Shown: one piece after another, positions 34,872-61,375 of the stretch | How the letters are laid out: each line of letters starts with the position of its first letter | Position numbering within the stretch: the stretch's first letter is position 1 | NCBI RefSeq assembly: GCF_002804245.1 | Contig: NZ_CP024968.1 | Span: 1 to 64,000 of the forward strand | Length of the DNA stretch: 64,000 nucleotides | Direction: 5' to 3' | Origin: Mesoplasma coleopterae | GTDB lineage: Bacteria; Bacillota_I; Bacilli_A; Mycoplasmatales; Mycoplasmataceae | Notes under the pieces: generated by a model | Told to the model about the DNA's origin: nothing | What the model saw: only the letters and a program-made list of their open reading frames with translations | Database searches by the model: none | Program-made: the position numbers and the translations under genes

Positions 34872-34887
34872 GTGCTTTTTATTTCAT
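34858..34887. terminator. Shared terminator between convergent lipoprotein genes
   Basis: AAAAGCAC pairs with GTGCTTTT around AATAG, with A-rich and T-rich flanks; it overlaps the stop codons on both sides. Confidence 0.75.
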
Positions 34888-36141
34888 TATTTTATTTATT
34901 ATGTTTCCTTCGTGATGAATCATTTGATTTATCTTTTCATTATTTTTTGTCAAATTATATTCAAAAGTATTATTCAAATGTGCATAATCAATCGAGTTAT
35001 CATATTCTGACACAGATCTGACTGATTTAGGTGCCACACCAGTTATTTTTATAAAATCCTGTTCCTGCTTTTTTAAATCTCTCATAATATTATGAATTAG
35101 TCTTCCTCTTGTAGGATCATTTTTTAAAGCAGAACCGCTTAAATCATTTGGTCTTTCGTCAGGAAAGACCAAAGCATTAGCATAATTTTTTCATTCTTTA
35201 GTGGCAGTAGTCCCTGAGATTATTACATATTCAGGAACTCTTGACAATTGACCTATCATTTTAGTAATAGATTGTGCAGAATTTGCAGAACCATGATGCG
35301 CAGGTAAGTAAATATCAATAGGTTTTTCTTTTATTTTATTTTGAACATTAGGATCTTTCATTATTGGTGTTAAACTAGTATTGGAATTTGACTTTCAAGA
35401 ATTATAATCTTGCATGTCACCAGGAAGTAAAAATGTTTTTTCATTAACTGTAAATCTTCATATTGCACTTGTTGAATTTGGATTTTGCTTATAAGCTGAA
35501 TCCAAGCTACTTTTAGAAGCATATGCTGATAAGTTTTCAATGTTAACCCCCATAAATTGATAGTTTTTTGAAAAACTTGTATCAACCCTAACATTTTCAC
35601 CTCTTTTTAAATTATGAATAGTTTTTTCCAATCCTACATTGTCCATGGGAGCTACAACTGTTCCAACTTCAAAATTATTAATTGTGTTAGCTAGAGCACT
35701 AAAATGGTCTTGATGTTTATGAGAAATAAGAATAGCATCAATATACTTTACACCAGCTACTTTTTTCATATAATCAACAACTCATTGCGTTCTTTCATCA
35801 CTGTCCATTTTTCAATTGCCTGTTTCAGTTGCTTTTGAATCATGTTCATGAATTTCATCATCACTAAGTCCCTCATTCACTGCTCCAGCCATTCCTACAC
35901 CAACATCAAAAACTATCGCGCGATCTTCATTTTGTAAAAAAGTGTAATTAGCATTTCCAACTGATAATACTCAAAAAGATGAATAACCATTTAAATTAGA
36001 GTTGCTTCCATTTCCTTCTCCACCATTATTGTTATTATTTTCAGGGTCTGTTATCTCATTTTTATTTCCACAAGAAACCAAAAGTGAACTTGTTCCAAAA
36101 GTTAAACTAGCTGCAAATAATACACTTATAACTTTTTTCAT
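34879..36141 (-). CDS. Metallo-beta-lactamase-fold lipoprotein (ComEC-like domain)
   Basis: A 420-residue lipoprotein (signal MKKVISVLFAASLTFGTSS, lipobox LLVSC, then an Asn/Gly-rich linker). The catalytic domain has the zinc motif SHKHQDHFSAL (HxHxDH), LLPGDM (metal Asp) and AHHGS, the pattern of the C-terminal nuclease-type domain of ComEC/Rec2. It is a paralogue of the lipoprotein at 48444. A surface-anchored phosphodiesterase or nuclease is the best guess. It diverges from a riboswitch-controlled endonuclease gene across a 250-base region. An upstream in-frame start is possible but would spoil the signal peptide. Confidence 0.8.
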
Positions 36142-36223
36142 ATAACCTCCAAGTTTTGAATATTCTCTCACAAATAAAATTAAAAAATGTATAAAAAAAT
36201 ACAACTAAAGAATTATTTTAATA

Positions 36224-36252: not shown

Positions 36253-36321
36253 AAAACTTATACAGGGTAGCATAATGGGCTACTGACCCGCCTCAAGACC
36301 AATCTTGAGACTATAAGTTTT
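36253..36321 (+). promoter_or_regulatory. Purine riboswitch, 2'-deoxyguanosine-type (copy A)
   Basis: The segment folds as a purine aptamer: P1 AAAACTTA with TAAGTTTT, P2 GTAGC with GCTAC closed by loop ATAATGG, P3 CTCAAGA with TCTTGAG closed by CCAA, and J3/1 ACTATA with the specificity C. L2 GG and L3 CC can form the loop-loop kiss. The J2/3 strand reads ACCCGC where guanine riboswitches have TCTAC, the change known from M. florum deoxyguanosine sensors. A terminator and then the endonuclease lipoprotein follow. Confidence 0.85.
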
Positions 36322-36366
36322 AAGAGAGGGATTGTTTTTGCTTGCACAAAAACACCCTCTTTTTCT
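36322..36366 (+). terminator. Riboswitch A expression-platform terminator
   Basis: GAGAGGG...TGTTTTTG pairs with CAAAAACA CCCTCT and is followed by TTTTTC. It lies between the aptamer and the ribosome site, as expected for control by premature termination. Confidence 0.8.
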
Positions 36367-36390
36367 TTGTTTAAGTTGTGAAGGAGAATT

Positions 36391-37527
36391 ATGAAAAAAT
36401 TATTAATTATTTTATCAACATTTTCATTATCAGCTAGCACTTTTTCATTTACAGTTTCGTGTTCTAATGAAAAAGATTTTAGAGGTGGCACTGTAAAATT
36501 AAATGAAATAAGTAATTTAAAATTAAATATTGGTTATGTAAAGGCAAATACCCCATCACTAATTGCTATAACTTTTGCAAGCAAAAACAGTGGGATTTTG
36601 CCTAAAGGAACAACAGCAAATGATTTCTATGTAACAGATATAACGGATTCATCTGCTTTATTATATGGTAAAGAAAGTTCAAAAATATTTGACTCAAAAA
36701 AACAATATGCAGTTAATATTGTTTTTGAAATCAAAAATGAGAGCTTAGATGTACCTATTGATTATGATCAATTAAATGTTGGAATTTGAAATCAAAATTC
36801 TCAAGGTTTTTATTATTCAAACAATTCTGAAGCGGAATACTATGATTCAACTAAAAATTTGAGCGGTGAAGCTTTAAAAAATGAACTTTATACAATATCA
36901 CACAAAAATTTTGTTACATTGTCATATGATACAGCAAAAGAAGCTTTAGTTCAAACTGATTTAATTGTTAAGGATGGTGAAACTTTTATTTATGGTTTCT
37001 ACGATGGCCAGTTGTATAAACCAAAATGAGAAGGTGGGCAAAGCAATGATACTTGAAATAGAGAACATATATGACCACAATCAAAATTCGATAAGTCAAC
37101 TTCAAGGGGAGACTTACATAATTTAAGAGCATGTAATGTAAAAACAAATGCAGTCAGAGGGAATAGATATTTTAAAGATTCTTTAACATCAACAGAAAAA
37201 AATACTATTGTAAGTTCTGATGCTTATTTTCCAGGGAAAGATTTTAAAGGAGATGTATCAAGAGCTTTAATGTACATGGCAATTCAGTACAAAGATTTAA
37301 ACTTAACAAATAACGAATCATTAATTAAACCAACAAACGCAAAATACATGGGAGTTTTAGATATACTTTTAAAATGACATAAAGAAGATCCGGTAGATGC
37401 TTTTGAAATGCAAAGAAATGAAATTATATACAAACACTATCAAAAAAATAGAAATCCTTTTATTGATCATCCAGAATATGCACATTTAATTTGAGAAAAT
37501 AAAACAATTTCAGATTTACTAGAATAA
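36391..37527 (+). CDS. Endonuclease I-family surface lipoprotein nuclease
   Basis: A 378-residue lipoprotein (lipobox TVSC after a Ser-rich signal). The first 110 residues after the signal form the same repeat domain seen in neighbouring lipoproteins (N....I...F...N, DFYV.DI, G..SSK). The C-terminal half is an endonuclease I / extracellular nuclease domain with the beta-beta-alpha metal motif NREHIWPQS (His catalytic) and GDLHNLRACN, then NRYF. It probably degrades DNA or RNA outside the cell. It starts 24 bases after the riboswitch terminator with AAGGAG. Control by a deoxyguanosine-type riboswitch fits a role in nucleoside scavenging. Confidence 0.9.
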
Positions 37528-37566
37528 AATACCAAATCATAATTTTTCGAACAACTTAATATTGCA

Positions 37567-37634
37567 AAAACTTATACAGGGTAGCATAATGGGCTACTGA
37601 CCCGCCTCAGACCAATCTTGAGACTATAAGTTTT
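37567..37634 (+). promoter_or_regulatory. Purine riboswitch, 2'-deoxyguanosine-type (copy B)
   Basis: Nearly identical to copy A, including leader and P1/P2/J2-3 sequence, except that P3 lacks one A on its 5' side (CTCAGA against TCTTGAG), leaving a bulged base. The kissing-loop residues are kept but the loop is shifted. It precedes the lipoprotein at 37741. Confidence 0.8.
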
Positions 37635-37678
37635 AAGAGAGGGAATGTTTTTTGCTTATACAAAAACACCCTCTTTTT
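37635..37678 (+). terminator. Riboswitch B expression-platform terminator
   Basis: GAGAGGG and TGTTTTTTG pair with CAAAAACA and CCCTCT around TTATA, followed by TTTTTC. Almost a copy of terminator A. Confidence 0.8.
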
Positions 37679-37740
37679 CTACTTTCTTATGTTTTTTTGT
37701 ATTAAAAAGTTGTAAAAAGCAAACAAAAAAGGGGACATAA

Positions 37741-39192
37741 ATGAAAAAATTATTAACAATATTATCAGCTGTTGGAATATCAGCTACATCAGCTTCTGTT
37801 GTTGTATCATGTAGTACAAAAGATGGTAAAGGATACCAAAATATTAAATCTATTGAGTCAGAGTTGTCTGCTTTAGTTTTAACTAAAACAGATAAAGCAT
37901 GAACAATTGAAGATTTACAAAAAGAAGTTGACTTAAAATATGGAGCGAGTGAACTTAAAGTTGAATCAATTACCGTTGATTCAACAAATGATAAAAAAGC
38001 AAATATTAAAATAAGTGCAGTAGGAAAAAAATTTAAAGGTTCAGTAACAATTGAACATAATTTTGAAGCAGGGGCATCAAACTCAATTGATATTTCAACT
38101 TTAAGTTTTAATGATAATTTATACATGGAAGCAGAAGACTTAGCAGATTTAGATAAAGTTCTAACTGCAATACAAGAAAACTCAACATCAACTGAAAGTT
38201 CTAATATAGATTGAACAAAACTTAAAATAGAAGCCAAAGAAGATGGTTTATATTTAGTTCCAAACATTGATCAGACTTATTCAGGTTCAAGAAAATTAAA
38301 TGTACAAGAAAAATTGAAATTAAGTCAGTTAGAATTGCAAGCTAATGTTGGTTTTGTTACTTCAAATAACTATGCAATTATATTGGATGCATTCTTAGAG
38401 GCAAATAAAACTAAAATTTCAGAATTAGGAATTAGTGCAAAGACTAACTATTATGTTGCAGTTGATGCTAATGGTAAAGCAACTATAACTGGAAATAAAA
38501 ATAGTAAAATGGTTTCATCAGTTGATACTTTAGAACTAACTTATGAAGTTCAAGATAAAAGAGTAAATTTAGATGAAATAGAAGGACTAGTAAATAAAGT
38601 TGTTTTAGTTCAAGAACCAACCACATCAACAACAGCTATTAGAGATGCATTTTTTGCTGCAAACGAAACAACATTAAAAGCTATTGATGGTCTTAGTGAA
38701 ATTAAGTCATCATCAGATTTATTTATAAAGAATTCAAATTGAAACAAGGCTGAAAAAACAGTAATAATTGAAGCTAAAAATACAAGTACAATTCTGAAAT
38801 CAACAAATGGAATTAAAGTTACTTATTCAGTTGATTCACCAAGTAATATTTTAGACTTAAGTAATTCTGAATCTGGCATAAATTTTGACATAAGACCAGC
38901 AAACGGAATGAATACTTTTCCTACTAAAGATTCAAAAAATGGTAAAAAAAGACCAAATAAATGATCTAGTCCGTTGGAAGAATTTTATAAATTGAATGAA
39001 TCAAAATTTAAGAAATTTGATATAAAAAACGCTTCAGATCTACAAACTGAAATAAATCCAAGTAGTGCCAAATACTCAGATAATTCAACTATAGAAAATG
39101 CACCAAAAGAAGACGACTGAATTTGCTTAACTGCTAAATCAGATTCAACAAAAATAAGAGGAACATTCTTTATACAATACAGAATTAACTAA
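37741..39192 (+). CDS. Modular lipoprotein under riboswitch B
   Basis: A 483-residue lipoprotein with signal MKKLLTILSAVGISATSAS and lipobox VVSC. I recognise no enzyme domain. It contains at least two copies of the repeat domain shared in this cluster (LELQANVGFVTSNNYAII..F, then VVLVQEPTTSTTAI..FFAANETTLKAI), plus N-terminal units with alternating beta strands (VESITVDS..ANIKISAVGK). Likely a surface-exposed binding or spacer protein. Several TGA codons are Trp. RBS is AAAAGGGG. Confidence 0.8.
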
Positions 39193-39294
39193 TATGCACA
39201 AAAGCAGTTTGCCTTATTTTATCTAATATAAAATAACCCCTAGAACTATTAATACCTAAATTTAAAGTAAGCTAAACTTTAAGAAAGAAATAAT

Positions 39295-39670
39295 ATGAAA
39301 AAATTTTTAATAACATTATCAGCAATTGGTCCGTACAGTTACAGCTATATCAGCAGTTGTTTCATGTGGCAATAATAACACAAATAATAATTGAAATACT
39401 GAAGGTGATTTAAATGTTGGAGAACTGAAGTTAATGGAAACACTGGAGGTTCAAATGACAACTTTTGTTCAATTGAACGCTTCATTGCTTCCAGCGTGAA
39501 CAACTGCTGATGATCTTTGACGAACTAATTTGGATACTGTAAATTTATATTCTTCAAATGAAGAACCTACAGCAAGATCGGGTTCAATGCAAGTAACTTT
39601 TAGCGAAGCTTCAACAATGTTTATAGGAACTTTAAAAATTTATTACACTTTGAATTTATTCATTGAATAA
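39295..39670 (+). pseudogene. Small lipoprotein, frameshifted in the signal peptide
   Basis: MKKFLITLSAIG begins a lipoprotein signal, but at about 39330 the frame must shift by one base to continue as VTAISAVVSCGNNN...; the in-frame reading stops soon after. The second frame stays open to 39670 and is Thr/Leu-rich with no known domain. No riboswitch lies ahead of it. It looks like a broken sibling of the neighbouring lipoprotein genes. Confidence 0.65.
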
Positions 39671-39763
39671 GAATTATATATTGAAAAATTTTTATTTCAA
39701 TATCTTTTTTTATTTTTTATGTTGTCAAAAATTATATATTAATAGAGCAACTAAATATTTAAG

Positions 39764-39830
39764 AAACTTATACAGGGTAGCATAATGGGCTACTGACCCC
39801 GCCTTCAAACCTATTTGAAGACTATAGGAC
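39764..39830 (+). promoter_or_regulatory. Purine riboswitch, 2'-deoxyguanosine-type (copy C)
   Basis: Same fold as A but with J2/3 ACCCCGC and P3 CTTCAAA with TTTGAAG closed by CCTA. From memory this is almost the sequence of the crystallised M. florum type I-A deoxyguanosine aptamer. P1 is weaker than in the other copies: the 3' strand reads ATAGGAC instead of ATAAGT. A terminator follows, then the lipoprotein at 39930. Confidence 0.85.
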
Positions 39831-39848
39831 TTTTATAAAACTTTAAAT

Positions 39849-39888
39849 AAAGTTTCTTTCAACGTCTTATTGGAAAGAAACTTTTTTA
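39849..39888 (+). terminator. Riboswitch C expression-platform terminator
   Basis: AAAGTTTCTTTC pairs with GAAAGAAACTTT around a 12-base loop, followed by T-rich sequence. Confidence 0.85.
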
Positions 39889-39929
39889 TTTGGTTGAGAA
39901 AATAATAAAAATAAAAGAAGGAGATTAAT

Positions 39930-40448
39930 ATGAGAAAAATATTAGCTATATTAGCTGCTGTTGGATTAACAGCAACAACAGGAACAACTCTAGTAAGTTG
40001 TGGAACAAAACATGAAGATAAAGATTACACAAAAGTTGAGGGAGTTAATGCTTGAAACAATAATATAAAACAAGTTCAAGGTTATGTCATTGATCAAATA
40101 GGTACAACTTTTGAAAGCGCAAAAGATATGAATGAAAAAATTAAGACAATAGATTTTTCAAAAGTAGCAAGAAACAATATTATTTTTGCCGATAATTTAT
40201 CATTAGGAAAATCAAGTGGCGAAAAAGCAGAAGCTGTTGCAGAAAAAGCACCAAAACCTACAGGTCTAAGTGACTATTCAGTTTATATTGTTGCAGTTAG
40301 AAGCTCAACAAAAGGAAGTGGTTCTGACAAAAAAAACACTCTGAAAATAGATTATTTAGTTTCAAAAAGCGAACAATGAACTTATGCTAATTTTGGAACA
40401 AACACAGGTTTTAATTACGACAATGTTTTCGTAACTTACACAAACTAA
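39930..40448 (+). CDS. Small lipoprotein under riboswitch C
   Basis: A 172-residue lipoprotein (signal MRKILAILAAVGLTATTGTT, lipobox LVSC). The rest has a single copy of a domain ending in SVYIVAVRSSTKG...NTLKIDYLVS, which resembles the YV..I....A.I.G pattern of the neighbouring repeat domain. No enzymatic motif. The start follows AAGGAG. Function unknown; probably a surface binding protein. Confidence 0.8.
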
Positions 40449-40459
40449 TTCATTTGTTG

Positions 40460-40465
40460 TATAAT
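40460..40465 (+). promoter_or_regulatory. -10 box ahead of riboswitch D
   Basis: TATAAT lies 24 bases upstream of the aptamer and shortly before the conserved leader AACAACTTAATA, the same layout as copy A. Confidence 0.5.
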
Positions 40466-40489
40466 TTTACTAACAACTTAATATGAAAA

Positions 40490-40552
40490 ACTTATACAGG
40501 GTAGCATAATGGGCTACTGACCCGCCTCAAGACCAATCTTGAGACTATAAGT
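40490..40552 (+). promoter_or_regulatory. Purine riboswitch, 2'-deoxyguanosine-type (copy D)
   Basis: The aptamer core is identical to copy A: P1 ACTTATA with TATAAGT, L2 ATAATGG, J2/3 ACCCGC, P3 CTCAAGA with TCTTGAG. Only the terminator differs in sequence. It precedes the two-repeat lipoprotein at 40640. Confidence 0.85.
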
Positions 40553-40556
40553 GTAG

Positions 40557-40592
40557 AGGTTTTTTGTCTATAAGCAAAAAACCTTTTTTTAT
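40557..40592 (+). terminator. Riboswitch D expression-platform terminator
   Basis: AGGTTTTTTG pairs with CAAAAAACCT around TCTATAAG, followed by a T-run. The loop repeats the P1 strand sequence CTATAAG, so it could compete with P1 formation. Confidence 0.8.
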
Positions 40593-40639
40593 TATCAACT
40601 GAAGTTTTTCTTTGGGTTGTATTCAAATTAGGGGGATTT

Positions 40640-41311
40640 ATGAAAAAATTATTAGCCGTATTAGGTGCAATTGGATTAACAGCAACAGGAGCTTCAGCAG
40701 TAGTTTCTTGTGGAGGAAACAATGGAGATAAAGATATCACTGATCCTGAAACAGGGTTAGTAGCTTTATCAAAAGTAAAAAACTTAGTTTTAGATTTAGG
40801 AGAAATTGGAACAAACACTTCTGCAAATATTTCAAAAACATTTTTTGACAAAAATGAATCAGTATTAAAAAAAGCGGTTGGAGACACTATAACATCAAAC
40901 ATGTTATACGTTTCAAAAATAACTTCAACATCAGCAACAATTACTGGTAAAAATTCAGGACAAGAATTATTAAGTCCATCAGCTGATTTTGCAGTTACAG
41001 TTGCATTTACAGCAACAAATGATACAAGACTCGATTTAGCAGCTACTACAAATTTAGTAAAAAAAGGATTAGAAGTTGACAAAAGTAAATTTGAAGGATC
41101 AGGTAAATATGATAAATCAAATTCAATTGCTGATGCATTAATTGCAGCAAACAAAGATTTATTAAAAGGTACAGTTGCTAAAGACTATTATTTAAAAGAT
41201 ATTGTTGCTCCAACTGAAGGAAAACCAGGAACAGCAAAAATTGAAGGAAGTACTTCAAGTTCAAAAGTAAAAAGTGGTTCAGCTGTTGAAGTTGAATTTA
41301 CATTTATTTAA
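40640..41311 (+). CDS. Two-repeat lipoprotein under riboswitch D
   Basis: A 223-residue lipoprotein (signal MKKLLAVLGAIGLTATGASA, lipobox VVSC). After the linker it consists of two tandem copies of an approximately 90-residue domain: one with NTSANISKTFFDKNES..LYVSKITSTSATITGKNSG..AVTVAFTA, the next with NSIADALIAANKD..DYYLKDIVAP..AKIEGSTSSSKVKSG..VEVEFTF. This is the cleanest example of the domain found also in the nuclease at 36391 and the lipoprotein at 37741. RBS is AGGGGG. Terminator downstream. Confidence 0.85.
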   Translation: MKKLLAVLGAIGLTATGASAVVSCGGNNGDKDITDPETGLVALSKVKNLVLDLGEIGTNTSANISKTFFDKNESVLKKAVGDTITSNMLYVSKITSTSATITGKNSGQELLSPSADFAVTVAFTATNDTRLDLAATTNLVKKGLEVDKSKFEGSGKYDKSNSIADALIAANKDLLKGTVAKDYYLKDIVAPTEGKPGTAKIEGSTSSSKVKSGSAVEVEFTFI

Positions 41312-41334
41312 TAAATAAAATTAATAATAAATGA

Positions 41335-41358
41335 AATAGACAAAAGTCTATTTTTTTT
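41335..41358 (+). terminator. Terminator after two-repeat lipoprotein gene
   Basis: AATAGAC pairs with GTCTATT around AAAA, followed by T7. Confidence 0.8.
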
Positions 41359-41474
41359 GTAATGTATGATTGTTGTATATTTAATAATATCATAAAATAT
41401 AACACTTATCATTACATTTTATGACAACATAATAAAGTTTATTATATTATAATATTTTTAACTTAATAAAAATT

Positions 41475-41538
41475 GACTTATACAGGGTAGCATAATGGGC
41501 TACTGACCCGCCTTAAGACCGATCTTAAGACTATAAGA
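41475..41538 (+). promoter_or_regulatory. Purine riboswitch, 2'-deoxyguanosine-type (copy E), ABC operon
   Basis: P1 CTTATA with TATAAG, P2 and L2 as in copy A, J2/3 ACCCGC, P3 CTTAAGA with TCTTAAG closed by CCGA. TATAAT at 41448-41453 is a likely -10 box. Unlike A-D no hairpin with a T-run follows. Instead ACTTAATAAA at 41461-41470 is an exact complement of 41572-41581, so the regions flanking the aptamer can pair. The ABC importer operon begins at 41620 after AGGGGG placed rather far from the ATG. Confidence 0.8.
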
Positions 41539-41619
41539 AATAGAATTATTTTATAAGAATTAAGTTGCTTCTTTATTAAGTAATAATTTGTACGAAAAAA
41601 TTAGGGGGATTATTTTTAA

Positions 41620-43719
41620 ATGAAAAAATTATTATTAACATTATCTTCTGTAACACTTGTTGGTACAGCTGGAATGAGTGTAGTTTCTTGTGGGGTTAAA
41701 CCAGAGAAAAATGTTATTTTTATGCTTCCAGGTGAAGCTGTTGGAGTAGGTTCAACTGATAAAATAGATGCATATACAGATTTAGTTCAAGAATTTAATG
41801 AATTACACGCTGGGGAAAAAGGATTTGTTCCTATTCAAGTAAAATGAGCTAAATCAGGAACAATTAATGATGCAATTTTAACAGGTGATAATTTGCCAGA
41901 TCTATATATTAGCTATGCTGATGCAGTTTCATTATATGCAAACACAAAAGTGTCAGATCAAGTTAGAGATATGGAGACTTCAATTGGAGAAGCAGGATTC
42001 AAAAACTTTGAAAAAGACGTTGTTGATGAATCATTCTTACAAGAAGGTCAATACAAAATGCAAGGAAGCGACAAGGCAACACAAATTGTTTTACCATTTG
42101 GTAAATCAGTTGAAATGTCAGTAATTAATGTAAACTTCTTTTTAGAATTTGTATCAAAAATTAATGTGACAGATTTTAATGGTAAAGAAATATCATCAAA
42201 AGTAAAAACAGAATTTGAAAACTTTAATAAAGAAAAAAGAAAAAACTTAACAGGAGACGGAAGTTTATCAAAAACAACTGTTTTTGCAGCAGATAAAGTT
42301 AACTTAGATGATGTTTGATTTGAAAATGCTAACTTAAAAGATGTTCAAAAAAGTTTAGTAGAAGCTTTGGAACCTTTATCAAAAATAGGTTCAACTGCTG
42401 ACTCTGGAGAATCTGTTGATGATGTAATTAGAGATGTTTTTGCCAAAAATGAAACTATAATTAGCTTAGCAAAAGTTTACAACGAAATATTCTCACAAAC
42501 TAAAAACATTGATTTAAAATATGAAAATACAAAAAATCTAAAAATGGATTCTGTTAATCCATCATCTGGAAAACATTTCTCTGTGGGAATTGATTCATTA
42601 GCAAATAAATACTTTATGGATCATGCTGCTAGAACTGGTAAAGGTTCAATTGATATCACTGATGAAAATAATAATTTTTTCTACAGTGCAAATTATGATA
42701 AAGAAACAAGAGTAGCAAATGTAAACTTTAATGAAGAATCTCAAGGATTTAAAGATACTTCAGATTTCTTACAAGCATTCAAGGAAATAGCTAAAGAAAA
42801 TAATTCAAACAATAATTTAGGTTCATATGCTGAACAATGAAATGGAACTTTAAATTTAAGTAGACAAGAAGGGACAACAAAATACTATACAAGTGATAGT
42901 TTCTTAGTTGGTTCATCATTTATGTCAAGTGGTTCATCAGCAGGTGCTTACAACTTTACAAAAGCAAAATATGTTAATAATGTTGGATATTCTCCAGTTA
43001 CAAATGCTGACGTATTAACAACTTCTACTTCAACAGCTCAAGGAGAAAAATCAGTATTTATGTCACAAGGTCCTGGTCTTGCAGGATTTAAATCTAATGG
43101 TTCTAATTCAGAAGAAAAAGAAAAAACTGTAACAGCATTCTTAAACTACATGATGCAGCCAAAGCAAGCAGCTGATTTTGCACTTAAATCAAATTACATG
43201 CCACCAACTAAGTCAGGAATGTTAATTTACCAAAACTATGTAAATGGTAACTACAATAATAAAGAAGCCAAAAATCAAAAAAATGCTATTAAAAATCCAA
43301 CTGCATTAGATGGCGTTGTAAATAAACTTAATGAGAAAGAAAAAACTAATAAATACACAGTTGATAATACTTTTACTGGTATTTATTCAACAAGTAAAGG
43401 TTCATTAAGTTCACAAGCTTCTCCCAATGCTGTTAACTCAGGATTTATTGAAAAATACTTAGCTGAAGGTGCTGATAGAATATTAGTAACTTCAACTCCA
43501 TCACCAATCGGAGCAACTGTTCGTGACTCAATTGCAACAGCAATTACAGGAACAGGAACAATAACAGACATAAGCAAAGCTAAAGATACTAAATTTAGCG
43601 ATATATTAAATGCTGAAAGTAAAGTATACACATTGCAAAACTATGTAATGAAAAAAAATAACACAGATATGTTTAGCAAAATTAATTTAACTCACAATTC
43701 AAAAAATAAGAAAAAATAA
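41620..43719 (+). CDS. ABC importer solute-binding lipoprotein
   Basis: A 699-residue lipoprotein (signal MKKLLLTLSSVTLVGTAGMS, lipobox VVSC). The body has the pattern of family 1 extracellular solute-binding proteins (LTGDNLPDLYISYADAVSLYA, VLPFGKS, FMSQGPGLAGFKSNGSN, YMPPTKSGMLIY), which in other bacteria bind sugars. It is followed by its ATPase and two permease genes in one operon. Control by a deoxyguanosine-type riboswitch suggests a nucleoside, nucleotide or deoxyribose-related ligand here, but that is inference. Paralogue at 32724. Confidence 0.85.
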
Positions 43720-43752: not shown

Positions 43753-46140
43753 ATGAGTATTAAACTAAAAAATATAACAATTGACTACGGAAATTTCTTG
43801 GCGGTAAATGACCTAAGTGTAAATATTAACAAAGGGGAACTAGTTTCCCTTTTAGGACCTTCTGGTTGTGGTAAAACAACAGCTTTAAACGCAATTGCAG
43901 GTCTTATAAATACAACATCAGGCCAAATTTTATTTGATGGTGTTGATGTAACACATAAAACACCTCAACAAAGAAACATCGGATTAGTATTCCAAAGTTA
44001 TGCACTATATTCACATATGAGCGTTTTTAAAAATATTGCATATCCTTTGTACCATTCAAAAGATTTTAAGAAGGAATTAGCAAGAGATAATTTTAAATAT
44101 AAAAATAGATTAAAAGATTTAAGAAATACACAATCATATGAATTGATCATAGAAGAACAAAATGAATTTTTAAATGATTTAAAAACATTCTTAAAAGAGA
44201 CAAATAATAAATTTAAATTACTTGAAACAGATTTTTTGAAGAATCATAAAAATTCAATTATTGAATATACTGATCAATTATTTGTTGATTTTGACAATGC
44301 TGAAGTATTAAAAAATCACTTAGTAAGTTATTTATATGACAAACTAAAAATTAAATTTAATGAAATAAAAGCGAGATTAGAATCAGTAATTTTAAAAAAC
44401 TACAAAATGTTATTAGCTCAAAAGTTAGATATTCGTTTTGCAGGAACTATTGGATACTATGCTTGATTAAATGAACAAAATGTAAGAGATAATCAAAAAC
44501 ATTTAGTAGAACTTATTAAAACAAGCAAAACTTCTAAAAAACAAATTAGAAAAGAACAAAAAAAAGTTAGCGCTAATTTAGATATTTTCAAAAGTTCATC
44601 AAGTGAAAATGGATATGATAACTATAATGCAATTAAGTCAGCAATAACAAATGACTTTATTGATCTTGAAGTTGCAGCGCTTGAAAAAGAAATTGATGCT
44701 TATTTTGCTGAAGTTTTATTAAAAACAAAACAACCAATTATAAAAAATAATAAAATTCAAACTTCAATAATTAACATTAGTAAAAAAATTACAGCATTTA
44801 GAACAACTTATTTAAGTAAACATGAAAAATTAGCAGCTAAATTTGTTAAAAATGTTTCAAAATATTTACCAAAAGAACTAGATATTCAAAATGATTTAAC
44901 TAAATACTTATTAAATATTTCAAAGATTGAATTTAATGTGATTCAACAAAATTTAAATGATTTAGTTTTTACTAATATGCAAAATTATGTTAATTCAGTT
45001 GAGCAAAACGAGTTTACACAATTGACAAACTACTACTCAGTAAATATAAATTCATACTTAAATATTTCTGAATCAAGTGATCAACTTTCAAAAATTAATA
45101 AAGAAATTGAAAAAATAATATCACTTGAGGAAGATAAAAAAATTAGTGGAATTGATATTTTAAGTTTAGAAAATTCTGATTATGCAAATTACATTGCAGA
45201 AAGAGATGCATTAACTGAAAGCCTTTTAATAGCATTTGCAGAAAAGACTGAAAACTTTATTTCTGAAACATTTAATAAGTTGCCTTCATTAGTTGAAAAA
45301 GAATTATTAAAATGTGGAAATCAAATTGATGTAACTGAAATTGAACAAGAAATAAGAAAAAACATTTATTCTAAAAAACGTAAAATTAGATCGTTAGTTT
45401 TAGAAGCTGCAAAACAAGTTGAAATTGAAACTCAGTTAAATAAAAAACCAAGTGAACTATCAGGTGGACAACAACAAAGGGTTGCTATTGCAAGAGCTGT
45501 TGTTAAAAAACCAAGTATTTTATTAATGGATGAGCCGTTATCTAACTTAGATGCAAAATTACGTTTAACAACAAGAGAATGAATTAAGAGATTCCAACAA
45601 AAAGTTGGTATTACAACTATTTTTGTTACTCACGATCAAGAAGAAGCTATGAGTATTTCAGATTCAATCTTTGTTATGAATAAAGGGGTTCTACAACAAG
45701 GAGGAACGCCATTAGAGATTTATAACAAACCAAAAAATAAATTTGTTGCAAACTTCATTGGAACACCAAATATTAATTTTATTGATATTAAAGTTAGAAA
45801 ATCAACATTTGAATTACCATCAGGTGAAAAATTAACAATTAAAGGTCAAAAAATTGAAAAAGAACAGTGAACACTAGGAATTAGACCAGAAAGAATTAGT
45901 ATTTCTGGAACAAAAGGAAAAGTATTTATTGGTGAAGGTGAAGTTTCTCTAGTTGAACAACTAGGAAAACAAAATCACATTAAAGTTCGTTTAAATAGTA
46001 AACTTGAAATCACATTAATTTTAGAACCACATGAATGAAATAATTTGAAAGATTCTTCAATTCTAAAACTATATGCAAGAAAAGAAGATCTATACTTATT
46101 TGATGCGGAAACAAACTTAGTAGAGGTAAAGTATGCGTAA
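43753..46140 (+). CDS. ABC importer ATPase (MsmK/UgpC type) with giant insertion
   Basis: A 795-residue ATPase, over twice the usual 360-370. Walker A GPSGCGKT is at 35-42 and the Q-loop [10 protein letters not shown] near 80, but the signature LSGGQQQR only at 569-576; about 430 residues rich in Lys, Glu, Asn and Ile, mostly predicted helical or coiled coil, sit between them in the helical subdomain. Walker B ([11 protein letters not shown]), switch H (FVTHDQEE) and the C-terminal MOI/TOBE regulatory region (GIRPERI) are normal. Mollicute homologues with smaller inserts are known. It is 33 bases after the binding protein and overlaps the next gene. Confidence 0.9.
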
Positions 46141-47130: not shown

Positions 47131-48444
47131 ATGGAAAAAAGAAATAATGAATGAAGTAAAAAAGTTAGAACTGAAGAATGATTGCAAAAGAATTCACTCA
47201 GAAGAACTTCAATTAAAGAAAAAACTTTAATTCAGGCTGAACCTGTTGTTAAAAGTACTGTTGTAGCTATAGATGAAATTTCAGAGGTTAAAAACCATGA
47301 AGTTGATACAATTAAATTAACTAAAAAAGAAAAATATGAAAGTGATTTAAAATTACAAGAAGAAGAAATAACAAAAAGGGAAGCTAAAATTATTATTGAA
47401 GCAAATTTCTTTAAAAGAGCTTGATTAAAAATTTGTCTTTCATGATTTATGTTCTGAAATAAAAAACAATTTAAATTTAAACACGCGTTTTATATTAGAT
47501 CTGTAAACAGAAGAAAAGATAAAACAATTAAAATGGCAGGTGATGTTTGATATAGAAGAATTGGAACAAATGTTTCAAACTATACTGTATTAATAATCAT
47601 GTTAGTTGTTATGATATTCCCATTCTATTGAATGTTAATAACATCATTTAAACCATATTCAGAAGTTGATACTGGTGTAATGGAATCTCTTTGACCAAAA
47701 CACTGAACATTACAAGCATATAAAGACATGTTCTCATATGTAAACAGTTCAGGTGGTAGAGAATCAATTCCATTTTCAAGATTCTTCTTTAACTCACTGT
47801 TTGTTGCTCTGGTTTCAACACTAGTTCAATTATCAGTTTCAGTTATTGGTGGATTTGCTATTTATAACTGAAGAACAAAATTTAACTCATTATTCATGAT
47901 TATAATGTTCTCAATTATGATGGTTCCAGGGGAAGCATTATTATTAGGTAGATACTGAATTGCAGTTCAAATGCAATGAAGAGATACTTTATTTGCATTA
48001 ATTGTTCCGTTCATTGGAAACGTATTTACCATTTATTTAATGAGCAACGCTTTCTATGGATTAAATAGAGATTTAAAAAGAGCGGCTAAAGTCGATGGAT
48101 TATCAAGTTTCCAATACTTTATGAAAATCGCTTTACCTGCAGTTAGTGCAACAATATTAACATCATTTATCATTTCATTTATTGAATCATGAAACTCAGT
48201 TTTATGACCAATCACAGTTATTGATAACCAATCTGGTCAATGAAGAACAATTCCTATGTTACTTTACTCATTAATGAATGTTAGTGGTATGACATCAGAA
48301 GAATTCCCAATCGCTGACCCAATCAACGTAAAAATGGCAGCATCAATTTTAGCAATTTTACCAATGATTATTGTGTTTGTTGTTTTCAATAAATGAATTA
48401 TTAATGGATTGACAAAAAGAAGTGTTGGAGGCACTAAAGGTTAA
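47131..48444 (+). CDS. ABC importer permease 2 (MalG/UgpE type)
   Basis: A 437-residue permease. Residues 1-150 are charged and cytoplasmic (an extension not usual in MalG), then six membrane segments start at VLIIMLVVMIFPFYWML. The EAA loop reads AAKVDGLSSFQYFMKIALP. It follows permease 1 after 8 bases with AGGAG, and its stop overlaps the start codon of the metallo-beta-lactamase lipoprotein. Confidence 0.9.
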
Positions 48445-49580
48445 TGAAGAAAAAAATAAATTTAGTATTCTTGAGTTTTATATTAACTTTAGTAGGATTT
48501 TTATCAATTATTACAGTTTCTTGTGGAACAAAGATTAAAGAAATTACAGGAAATGTATCATATTATGTTCTATCAATTGGAAGTGGAAATTTTACCTTCT
48601 TAGAAAAAGATGGACATGCTGTTGTTATGGATTGTGGAGTTGGAATTGGTGGTAATAATTCAGGTGATTCATTTGAAATAGATTCACCTGAAACTTTCGC
48701 CCTTAACAACGGAAGATGAGTATCAGCTAGTGAAAAAGACGGAAAAGCAATTACAAATTTTATGAAAAATACAGCAGGTGTTAAAGTTATTGATGCTATA
48801 TTTATTTCTCATAAACATTCTGATCACTATAGTGCTTTAAAATATCTTGTTCAAGAATTTGAAGTAGGAACAGTTGTGGCTCCTACAGACAGTGCTGGGT
48901 TAGAAAGAGCAATTAGTAGTTACCAACCAAAAGGCCAAATGCCAATAGTTGATACAAGTTTTTCAAAAACATATGAATTTTTAGGCGGGACAATTGAAAA
49001 TTTAACAGCCTATTCTTCAAAAAAAGTTGTTAAGAGCTTATATACAACAGATGATCCAAATGCCAATAGTATGGTTTTAAGATTTAAAGCAAACGGTAAA
49101 ACATTTTTATTACCTGGAGACATGGAAAATACATCAAAAGTTATGAGTGATAAAAAATTCTTAAAGGCTGTTTCTTCTCAACCAGTTGATTTTTACTTGT
49201 TAGCACATCACGGTTCAACAAATGGTGCTACTGAACTAACACCTTTAATTGGAAATAAAGATCATGCACCAGAACACGTTATTGTGTCTGCTACAGATAA
49301 TACAGATGGTTTTGAAAATTGATCTGGTGAAAGACAAGCTGTAACTAACTCTAAAACACCAATCGGAAATGTTCTAAAAACATATGGTGTTAGAAAAGAC
49401 AGAAAACCCTATGTTTATGTAACAGGTTCAGTTTTAGCAGAAACACTACAAAACGAACTTCCTGATATAGTTGATAAAGAAAATATAAAATCAACTTTTG
49501 AATATAAATTTTCTGATAACAAATGAGATTTCTTTGCGCATAAAGAAAATATTTCAAATGAATTCAAAATAGCAGAATAA
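48444..49580 (+). CDS. Metallo-beta-lactamase-fold lipoprotein in ABC operon
   Basis: A 378-residue lipoprotein (signal with FLSFILTLVGFLSII, lipobox TVSC). Zinc-site motifs are SHKHSDHYSAL, LLPGDME and AHHGS, as in the ComEC/Rec2 C-terminal domain. It is a paralogue of the protein at 34879 (shared VGTVVAP.D..GLE, VDTSFSK.Y.F). The start codon overlaps the permease stop, so it is translated together with the importer; a surface hydrolase that feeds the importer is the simplest reading. A divergent riboswitch copy follows its stop. Confidence 0.85.
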
Positions 49581-49596: not shown

Positions 49597-49658
49597 ACTT
49601 ATACAGGGTGGCATAAAGGGCTACTCACCTTCTTAAGAGCGATCTTAAGACTATAAGA
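49597..49658 (+). promoter_or_regulatory. Divergent riboswitch copy F at 3' end of ABC operon
   Basis: Clearly homologous to copies A-E (P1 ACTTATA, same P3 as copy E) but altered at key places: L2 ATAAAGG instead of ATAATGG, P2 GTGGC with GCTAC, J2/3 CACCTT instead of ACCCGC, and L3 GCGA instead of CCGA, which breaks the GG-CC loop kiss. J3/1 ACTATA is kept. It lies 17 bases after the metallo-beta-lactamase gene with no visible promoter of its own. It may be decaying or may sense a different ligand. Confidence 0.6.
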
Positions 49659-49672
49659 ATACAAAAAATACA

Positions 49673-49707
49673 AAGTTTCGTTCAAATAAGAATGAAACTT
49701 TTTTATT
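49673..49707 (+). terminator. Terminator after copy F
   Basis: AAGTTTCGTTC pairs with GAATGAAACTT (one G-U) around AAATAA, followed by a T-run. It either ends the ABC operon or serves as the expression platform before the DUF1904 gene. Confidence 0.8.
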
Positions 49708-49794
49708 TAATGTATGTTTAACTATAATATGATAAATAATCTTTGTTGTTGTATTTATAATTTGTTAAAATAAATAAAAGAAAAGAGTGATTTT

Positions 49795-50112
49795 ATGCCA
49801 ATTTTAAAATTTAATGGAGCAAGTGAAGAACAAGTAAAACAGTATGCAAAAAAGATTGATGAACTTGTAGATTTAATTGTTGCTAAACCAGAAGCTATTT
49901 TAATGATTAATAATAATAACAATGTTTATGTGGCCGAAAATACAAATAAGAGAGTTTATGTTGAAGTTGATTGATTAGCAAGACCAGAAGAAGCTAGAAT
50001 AGCATTAGTTAAACATCTGACTGATTTTTTTGGTGGAGATGGAATAACAGTTTCTGTTAAGTTTACAGAAATTAATAAAAATTTATATGTAAACAATAAT
50101 AGAATGGGTTAA
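49795..50112 (+). CDS. DUF1904-like small protein
   Basis: A 105-residue soluble protein starting MPILKFNGASEEQVKQYAKKIDE and containing VYVEVDWLARPEEARIALVKHLT. The form and length resemble the DUF1904 family, small proteins related to the tautomerase fold with Pro at position 2. Role unknown. It precedes dus by two bases and could be co-transcribed with dus and lysS. One TGA is Trp. Confidence 0.65.
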
Positions 50113-61251: not shown

Positions 61252-61289
61252 GTAAAAGAACCTCCTACATAAAAAGACAGAAAAAATAT

Positions 61290-61375
61290 TTTAGGACTTC
61301 CTACGCTAGTATTAACTAGATCAGGTTCTAAGAGTATTTCTCAAGCTTTCGCTACCTCTGCCTTCTTACACTTTA
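61290..61375 (-). promoter_or_regulatory. TPP riboswitch
   Basis: On the minus strand the aptamer reads CTTGAGA near its 5' half, then ACCTGATCTAGTTAATACTA and GCGTAGGAA, the highly conserved thi-box (CTGAGA ... ACCTGATCTGGATAATRCCAGCGTAGGGAA). It precedes the ThiT-like gene and ends about 40 bases before its ATG. No T-run terminator is visible, so control may be at translation start (AGGAGG). Confidence 0.88.

Follow-up and report, generated by a model that had tools for sequence, protein, structure and literature searches.

The closest described systems are the nrd-type 2'-dG-I riboswitches (RF01510) of Mesoplasma florum; in the studied switch of that species, an antiterminator strand competes with the P1 helix (PMC12268651). 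In both 2'-dG classes, L2 and L3 remain connected by two G-C pairs (PMC8872408). The guanine/adenine riboswitch (RF00167) and its xanthine, guanine-II, 2'-dG-II, and 2'-dG-III variants share the same architecture, the variants having arisen via junction changes and being characterized by consistent links to particular genes and by ligands that have been measured (PMC9295807). The aptamer investigated here, termed copy F, resembles the M. florum nrd type in its three-stem layout, the sequence of P1, P3, and J3/1, the length of L2, and the terminator downstream. In contrast to this type, it lacks the G46-C53 pair (xpt numbering) and one C of L3, its J2/3 is one base shorter, it has no leader, promoter, or antiterminator, and it lies in a 3' UTR and not in a 5' UTR. 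Unlike the RF00167 variants, it has neither a coherent gene association nor a measured ligand, and a junction pair held by all related aptamers examined is broken. Further extra family copies with damaged core or stems occur at G005:31317 and G003:538139 in other genomes of the genus; compared with these, copy F is the more stable one, with P1 and P3 fully preserved. We consider copy F to be a vestigial 2'-dG-I aptamer that does not control lysS and most likely arose by duplication of copy E, the aptamer heading the ABC-transporter operon in whose 3' UTR copy F lies (probability approximately 0.77).

The analyzed stretch of DNA (the window, 64,000 nucleotides) belongs to a genome of 800,407 bases from the Mesoplasma group. 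Rfam located six 2'-dG-I aptamers in the window (starting at 36256, 37570, 39766, 40490, 41476, and 49597) along with one purine aptamer (58391) and one TPP aptamer (61281-61369); the aptamer scan of the whole genome gave 10 matches. The full-length match of copy F to the 2dG-I model (E-value 1.9e-11; Table 1) is far beyond chance and confirms a real copy, with a score that is the lowest among the copies above the cut-off. Copy F follows the stop codon of the metallo-beta-lactamase-fold (MBL) gene and precedes the terminator, thereby matching the position at the operon end that the original prediction had given.

Table 1. Coordinates of copy F, its structural parts, and the neighboring features in the window.
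Feature	Position	Strand	Basis or remark
Copy F, degenerate 2'-dG-I (RF01510) aptamer	49597..49658	+	Rfam 64.2 bits, gathering 51
P1 of F, intact, same as copy E	5' strand 49597..49603; 3' strand 49652-49658	+	comparison with E
P2 of F, one extra pair (G10-C30); A14G gives a G-U pair	5' strand 49606..49612; 3' strand 49620-49626	+	predicted fold, -18.5 kcal/mol
L2 of F, AUAAAGG for AUAAUGG	49613..49619	+	same change in core-keeping copies, e.g., G003:683520
J2/3 of F, CACCUU; without G30 (G46) and C37 (C53), shorter by one base	49626..49631	+	both invariant in 110/110 other aptamers
P3-L3 of F, stem intact, loop GCGA (GNRA type) for CCGA	49632..49649	+	L3 C in 53/53 ungapped others
Intrinsic terminator ending the upstream ABC-transporter/MBL operon	49672..49707	+	hairpin 49672-49701 and T run; homologous aptamer-less terminator in G004; G002, G003, G005, and G006 have other terminators
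Copy E, aptamer heading the same ABC/MBL operon; nearest relative of F (7 differences)	41476..41538	+	Rfam and pairwise comparison
MBL lipoprotein, last gene of the ABC-transporter/MBL operon	48444..49580	+	Pfam PF00753
TGTTAAAAT, probable extended -10 of DUF1904-dus-lysS	49763..49771	+	block kept in all 7 genomes; fits M. florum -10 TAWAAT (PMC7745072)
DUF1904 gene, then dus and lysS; predicted not under F control	49795..50112	+	Pfam PF08921

Comparison with copy E revealed A14G in P2, U21A in L2, G30C, one deletion and two changes in J2/3 (GACCCGCC in E vs. CACCUUC in F), and a C to G exchange in L3, all seven differences falling outside P1 and P3 (28 bases). J3/1 is identical in both copies, including the cytosine pairing with the guanine ring (C80/C74); the nucleoside-specifying C58 (position 51) reads as C or U, depending on the placement of the deletion. 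The alignment thereby reproduced the L2 and L3 changes and the intact P1, P3, and J3/1 of the original prediction. Its altered J2/3 was found as well, the one-base deletion having been overlooked, and the list of base changes was correct for the most part but had missed A14G. A damaging effect of the L2 change was considered and dropped, AUAAAGG also being the L2 sequence of the G003 nrd copy and of further copies with an intact core, and on its own this change looks harmless.

Judged from the alignment, the decisive changes are the loss of G30, C37, and the first C of L3. The columns of G30 and C37, corresponding to G46 and C53 of xpt, are changed only in copy F and invariant in each of the 110 further aptamers compared from this bacterial family, as well as in a smaller set of 55 (55/55). 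This core junction pair (30-36 in the model), which is also modeled as a pair in Rfam's 2dG-I model, is represented by C and U or a gap in copy F and flagged as broken by the Rfam model. Neither the J2/3 core changes nor the L3 change occur in any other copy compared. With GC in place of CC in L3, at most one L2-L3 G-C tertiary pair is left of the two that the 2'-dG classes retain. Since both the junction pair and one loop-loop C are gone, copy F should bind neither 2'-deoxyguanosine nor another purine well.

The terminator downstream, noted as a good one in the original prediction, was detected independently as hairpin 49672-49701 with its T run (two sites found vs. 0.2 expected). Its coupling to the aptamer was assessed by folding of transcription intermediates including 30 nt of leader, the resulting contrasts being thermodynamic predictions. 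In all 19 other terminator-bearing copies tested (excluding the ortholog of F in G001), the 5' arm of the terminator pairs upstream and P1 is broken (P1 0.00-0.04). For copy F, no antiterminator competing with P1 was found in the same test and P1 stays at 0.90; pairing of its leader with the terminator arm reaches -4.1 kcal/mol, no better than shuffles. The G001 ortholog gave no clear P1 competition either. An earlier fold test of the P3 and P1 3' strands against the terminator arm separated working and dead copies poorly, and the separation was achieved by adding the upstream leader. A possible pairing of GAGCGA in L3 with UCGUUC of the terminator (six pairs) was dropped as likely chance. Because no antiterminator competes with P1, copy F is predicted to be unable to switch its terminator.

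The remaining parts of a switch are missing upstream as well. No TAWAAT motif, the experimentally derived -10 box of M. florum (PMC7745072), lies 15-50 nt upstream of copy F; it is present in 38 of the 55 copies scanned, mostly near -30, with near-variants in its place in the nrd-type copies. Most other copies combine a TATAAT-like box approximately 28-33 nt before P1 with a leader resembling CAACTTAATAT, and the scan of aptamer copies revealed no CAACTTAATA-like leader upstream of copy F.

The distribution of the element was analyzed in seven genomes of the genus, with one strain of this species. All seven carry a terminator in this gap, with or without an aptamer, and the homologous one in G004 directly follows the MBL gene. 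Five of the seven lack an aptamer at this place. The only one at the same position is G001:37233-37295, within an 11-kb collinear stretch of 83% identity. It differs from copy F at 13 sites (12 substitutions and one gap), with 34% of four-fold sites differing in the same comparison; the other orthologous pairs (C, D, E, nrd, guaA, 784k, and purine) show 1, 0, 1, 0, 8, 4, and 4 differences, respectively. The G001 ortholog has acquired a pocket change of its own, C74U, at the position reading the purine ring. Its combination of U for C in J3/1 with a J2/3 of the 2'-dG/guanine type (GACCUGC) was not seen in other aptamers compared, and this copy may be an adenine or 2'-deoxyadenosine binder, or be in early decay. 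From the DUF1904 side on, identity with G003 is 96.9%; G003 carries neither copy F nor the MBL gene. Its different ABC operon without the aptamer indicates that the island of copies A-F is accessory and exchanged between close relatives. A crossover is visible inside DUF1904 at approximately 49960-50050, where similarity to G003 changes from approximately 85% on the left to approximately 95-100% on the right, the whole aptamer-lipoprotein island having been exchanged. A weak 2'-dG-I remnant of 28.6 bits at G003:538139-538197 represents another decayed copy.

Downstream of the terminator, seven species share the conserved block TTTGTTAAAATAAA(T)AAAAGAAAAGAGTGATTTTATG with a single indel as the only difference, their divergence from this genome at four-fold sites being 6-42%. 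Within the window, the extended -10 motif by itself does not exceed chance expectation, and the promoter argument rests on the conservation of the motif. TGTTAAAAT fits TAWAAT with the extension, and a similar block precedes another gene. This conserved promoter-like block following the terminator argues that DUF1904-dus-lysS is most likely transcribed from its own promoter.

We favor the reading of a decayed duplicate, because the invariant core is lost, promoter, leader, and antiterminator are absent, divergence from the only ortholog is fast, and the distribution is patchy. Of the two options in the original prediction, it is the decaying duplicate that agrees with these data. Copy F would have arisen from copy E by duplication and been left stranded where the ABC/MBL operon ends, ahead of the unconditional terminator of that operon, being transcribed only as part of the 3' UTR. 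Transcription of the operon would end at 49672-49707 regardless of ligand, and DUF1904-dus-lysS would start from its own promoter near 49763.

The perfect preservation of P1, P3, and J3/1 runs counter to decay. In addition, copy F is predicted to fold into a tighter three-stem structure than copy E (-18.5 vs. -13.9 kcal/mol), stabilized by pairing of C30 with G10, a gained pair in P3, and the GCGA tetraloop in L3; this makes it the fourth most stable of 56 aptamers. In a post hoc test with E taken as the ancestor, it exceeded about 99% of simulated random decays in stability. This departure from the neutral-decay prediction leaves some, albeit weak, room for a structural role, in which an element without ligand binding would be kept in the 3' UTR for protecting the 3' end of the operon mRNA or aiding termination. 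Untouched P1 and P3, the additional pairs in P2 and P3, and the GNRA-type loop would all fit such a role. We nevertheless regard it as rather unlikely, given that 6% of simulated decays reach the same stability once P1 and P3 are spared, that the G001 ortholog folds at only -12.3 kcal/mol and is not especially stable, and that five sister species have no element there at all. Very unlikely is the combination of a scaffold turned purely structural after pocket loss in copy F with a move of its G001 ortholog toward an adenine-type ligand; if true, one duplicated riboswitch would have met two different fates.

The second option of the original prediction, an aptamer with new ligand specificity controlling readthrough into DUF1904-dus-lysS, appears highly unlikely and is poorly supported. 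The pocket-region changes between intact helices, the terminator downstream, the pocket change of the G001 ortholog, and the precedent for altered specificity in this class (PMC9295807) speak in its favor. However, the lost pair never varies among the 110 related aptamers, whatever their pocket type, the terminator is predicted to be uncoupled from P1 and stands without an aptamer in sister species, most of which lack the element, and a conserved promoter-like block belongs to the downstream operon itself. A functional switch still binding 2'-dG weakly, for which the Rfam score above the cut-off and the kept specificity C in J3/1 could be cited, is scarcely tenable with core pair and loop-loop C lost, the terminator uncoupled, and neither promoter nor leader present.

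Five near-identical 2'-dG-I aptamers are clustered within 5.3 kb (36256-41538), preceding genes for an endonuclease I lipoprotein and several unknown lipoproteins as well as a solute-binding ABC operon; this gene set points to a role in controlling the scavenging of extracellular DNA or deoxynucleosides. No U-run terminator follows the aptamer in copy E (41476-41620) or in its orthologs from G001 and G004. Since a downstream UUAAGUU segment can pair with AACUUAA of the leader, this copy at the operon head may rely on a different expression platform. Copy B (37570-37631) has lost one base of P3 and may also be losing function. An ABC ATPase of 795 aa is encoded at 43753-46140, its ABC_tran domain being split by an insertion of several hundred residues, and two metallo-beta-lactamase-like lipoprotein paralogs in opposite orientation (34879-36204 and 48444-49580) flank the aptamer island.

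Automatic annotation labels copy F as a 2'-dG riboswitch ahead of lysS; comparison shows that core, platform, and promoter are gone. In multi-copy riboswitch families, a score above the cut-off is not equivalent to a working switch. The comparative context being good, copy F can be considered a clear case of a riboswitch pseudogene, and working copies, the C74U copy, and the dead copy together provide a natural series for studies of aptamer decay.
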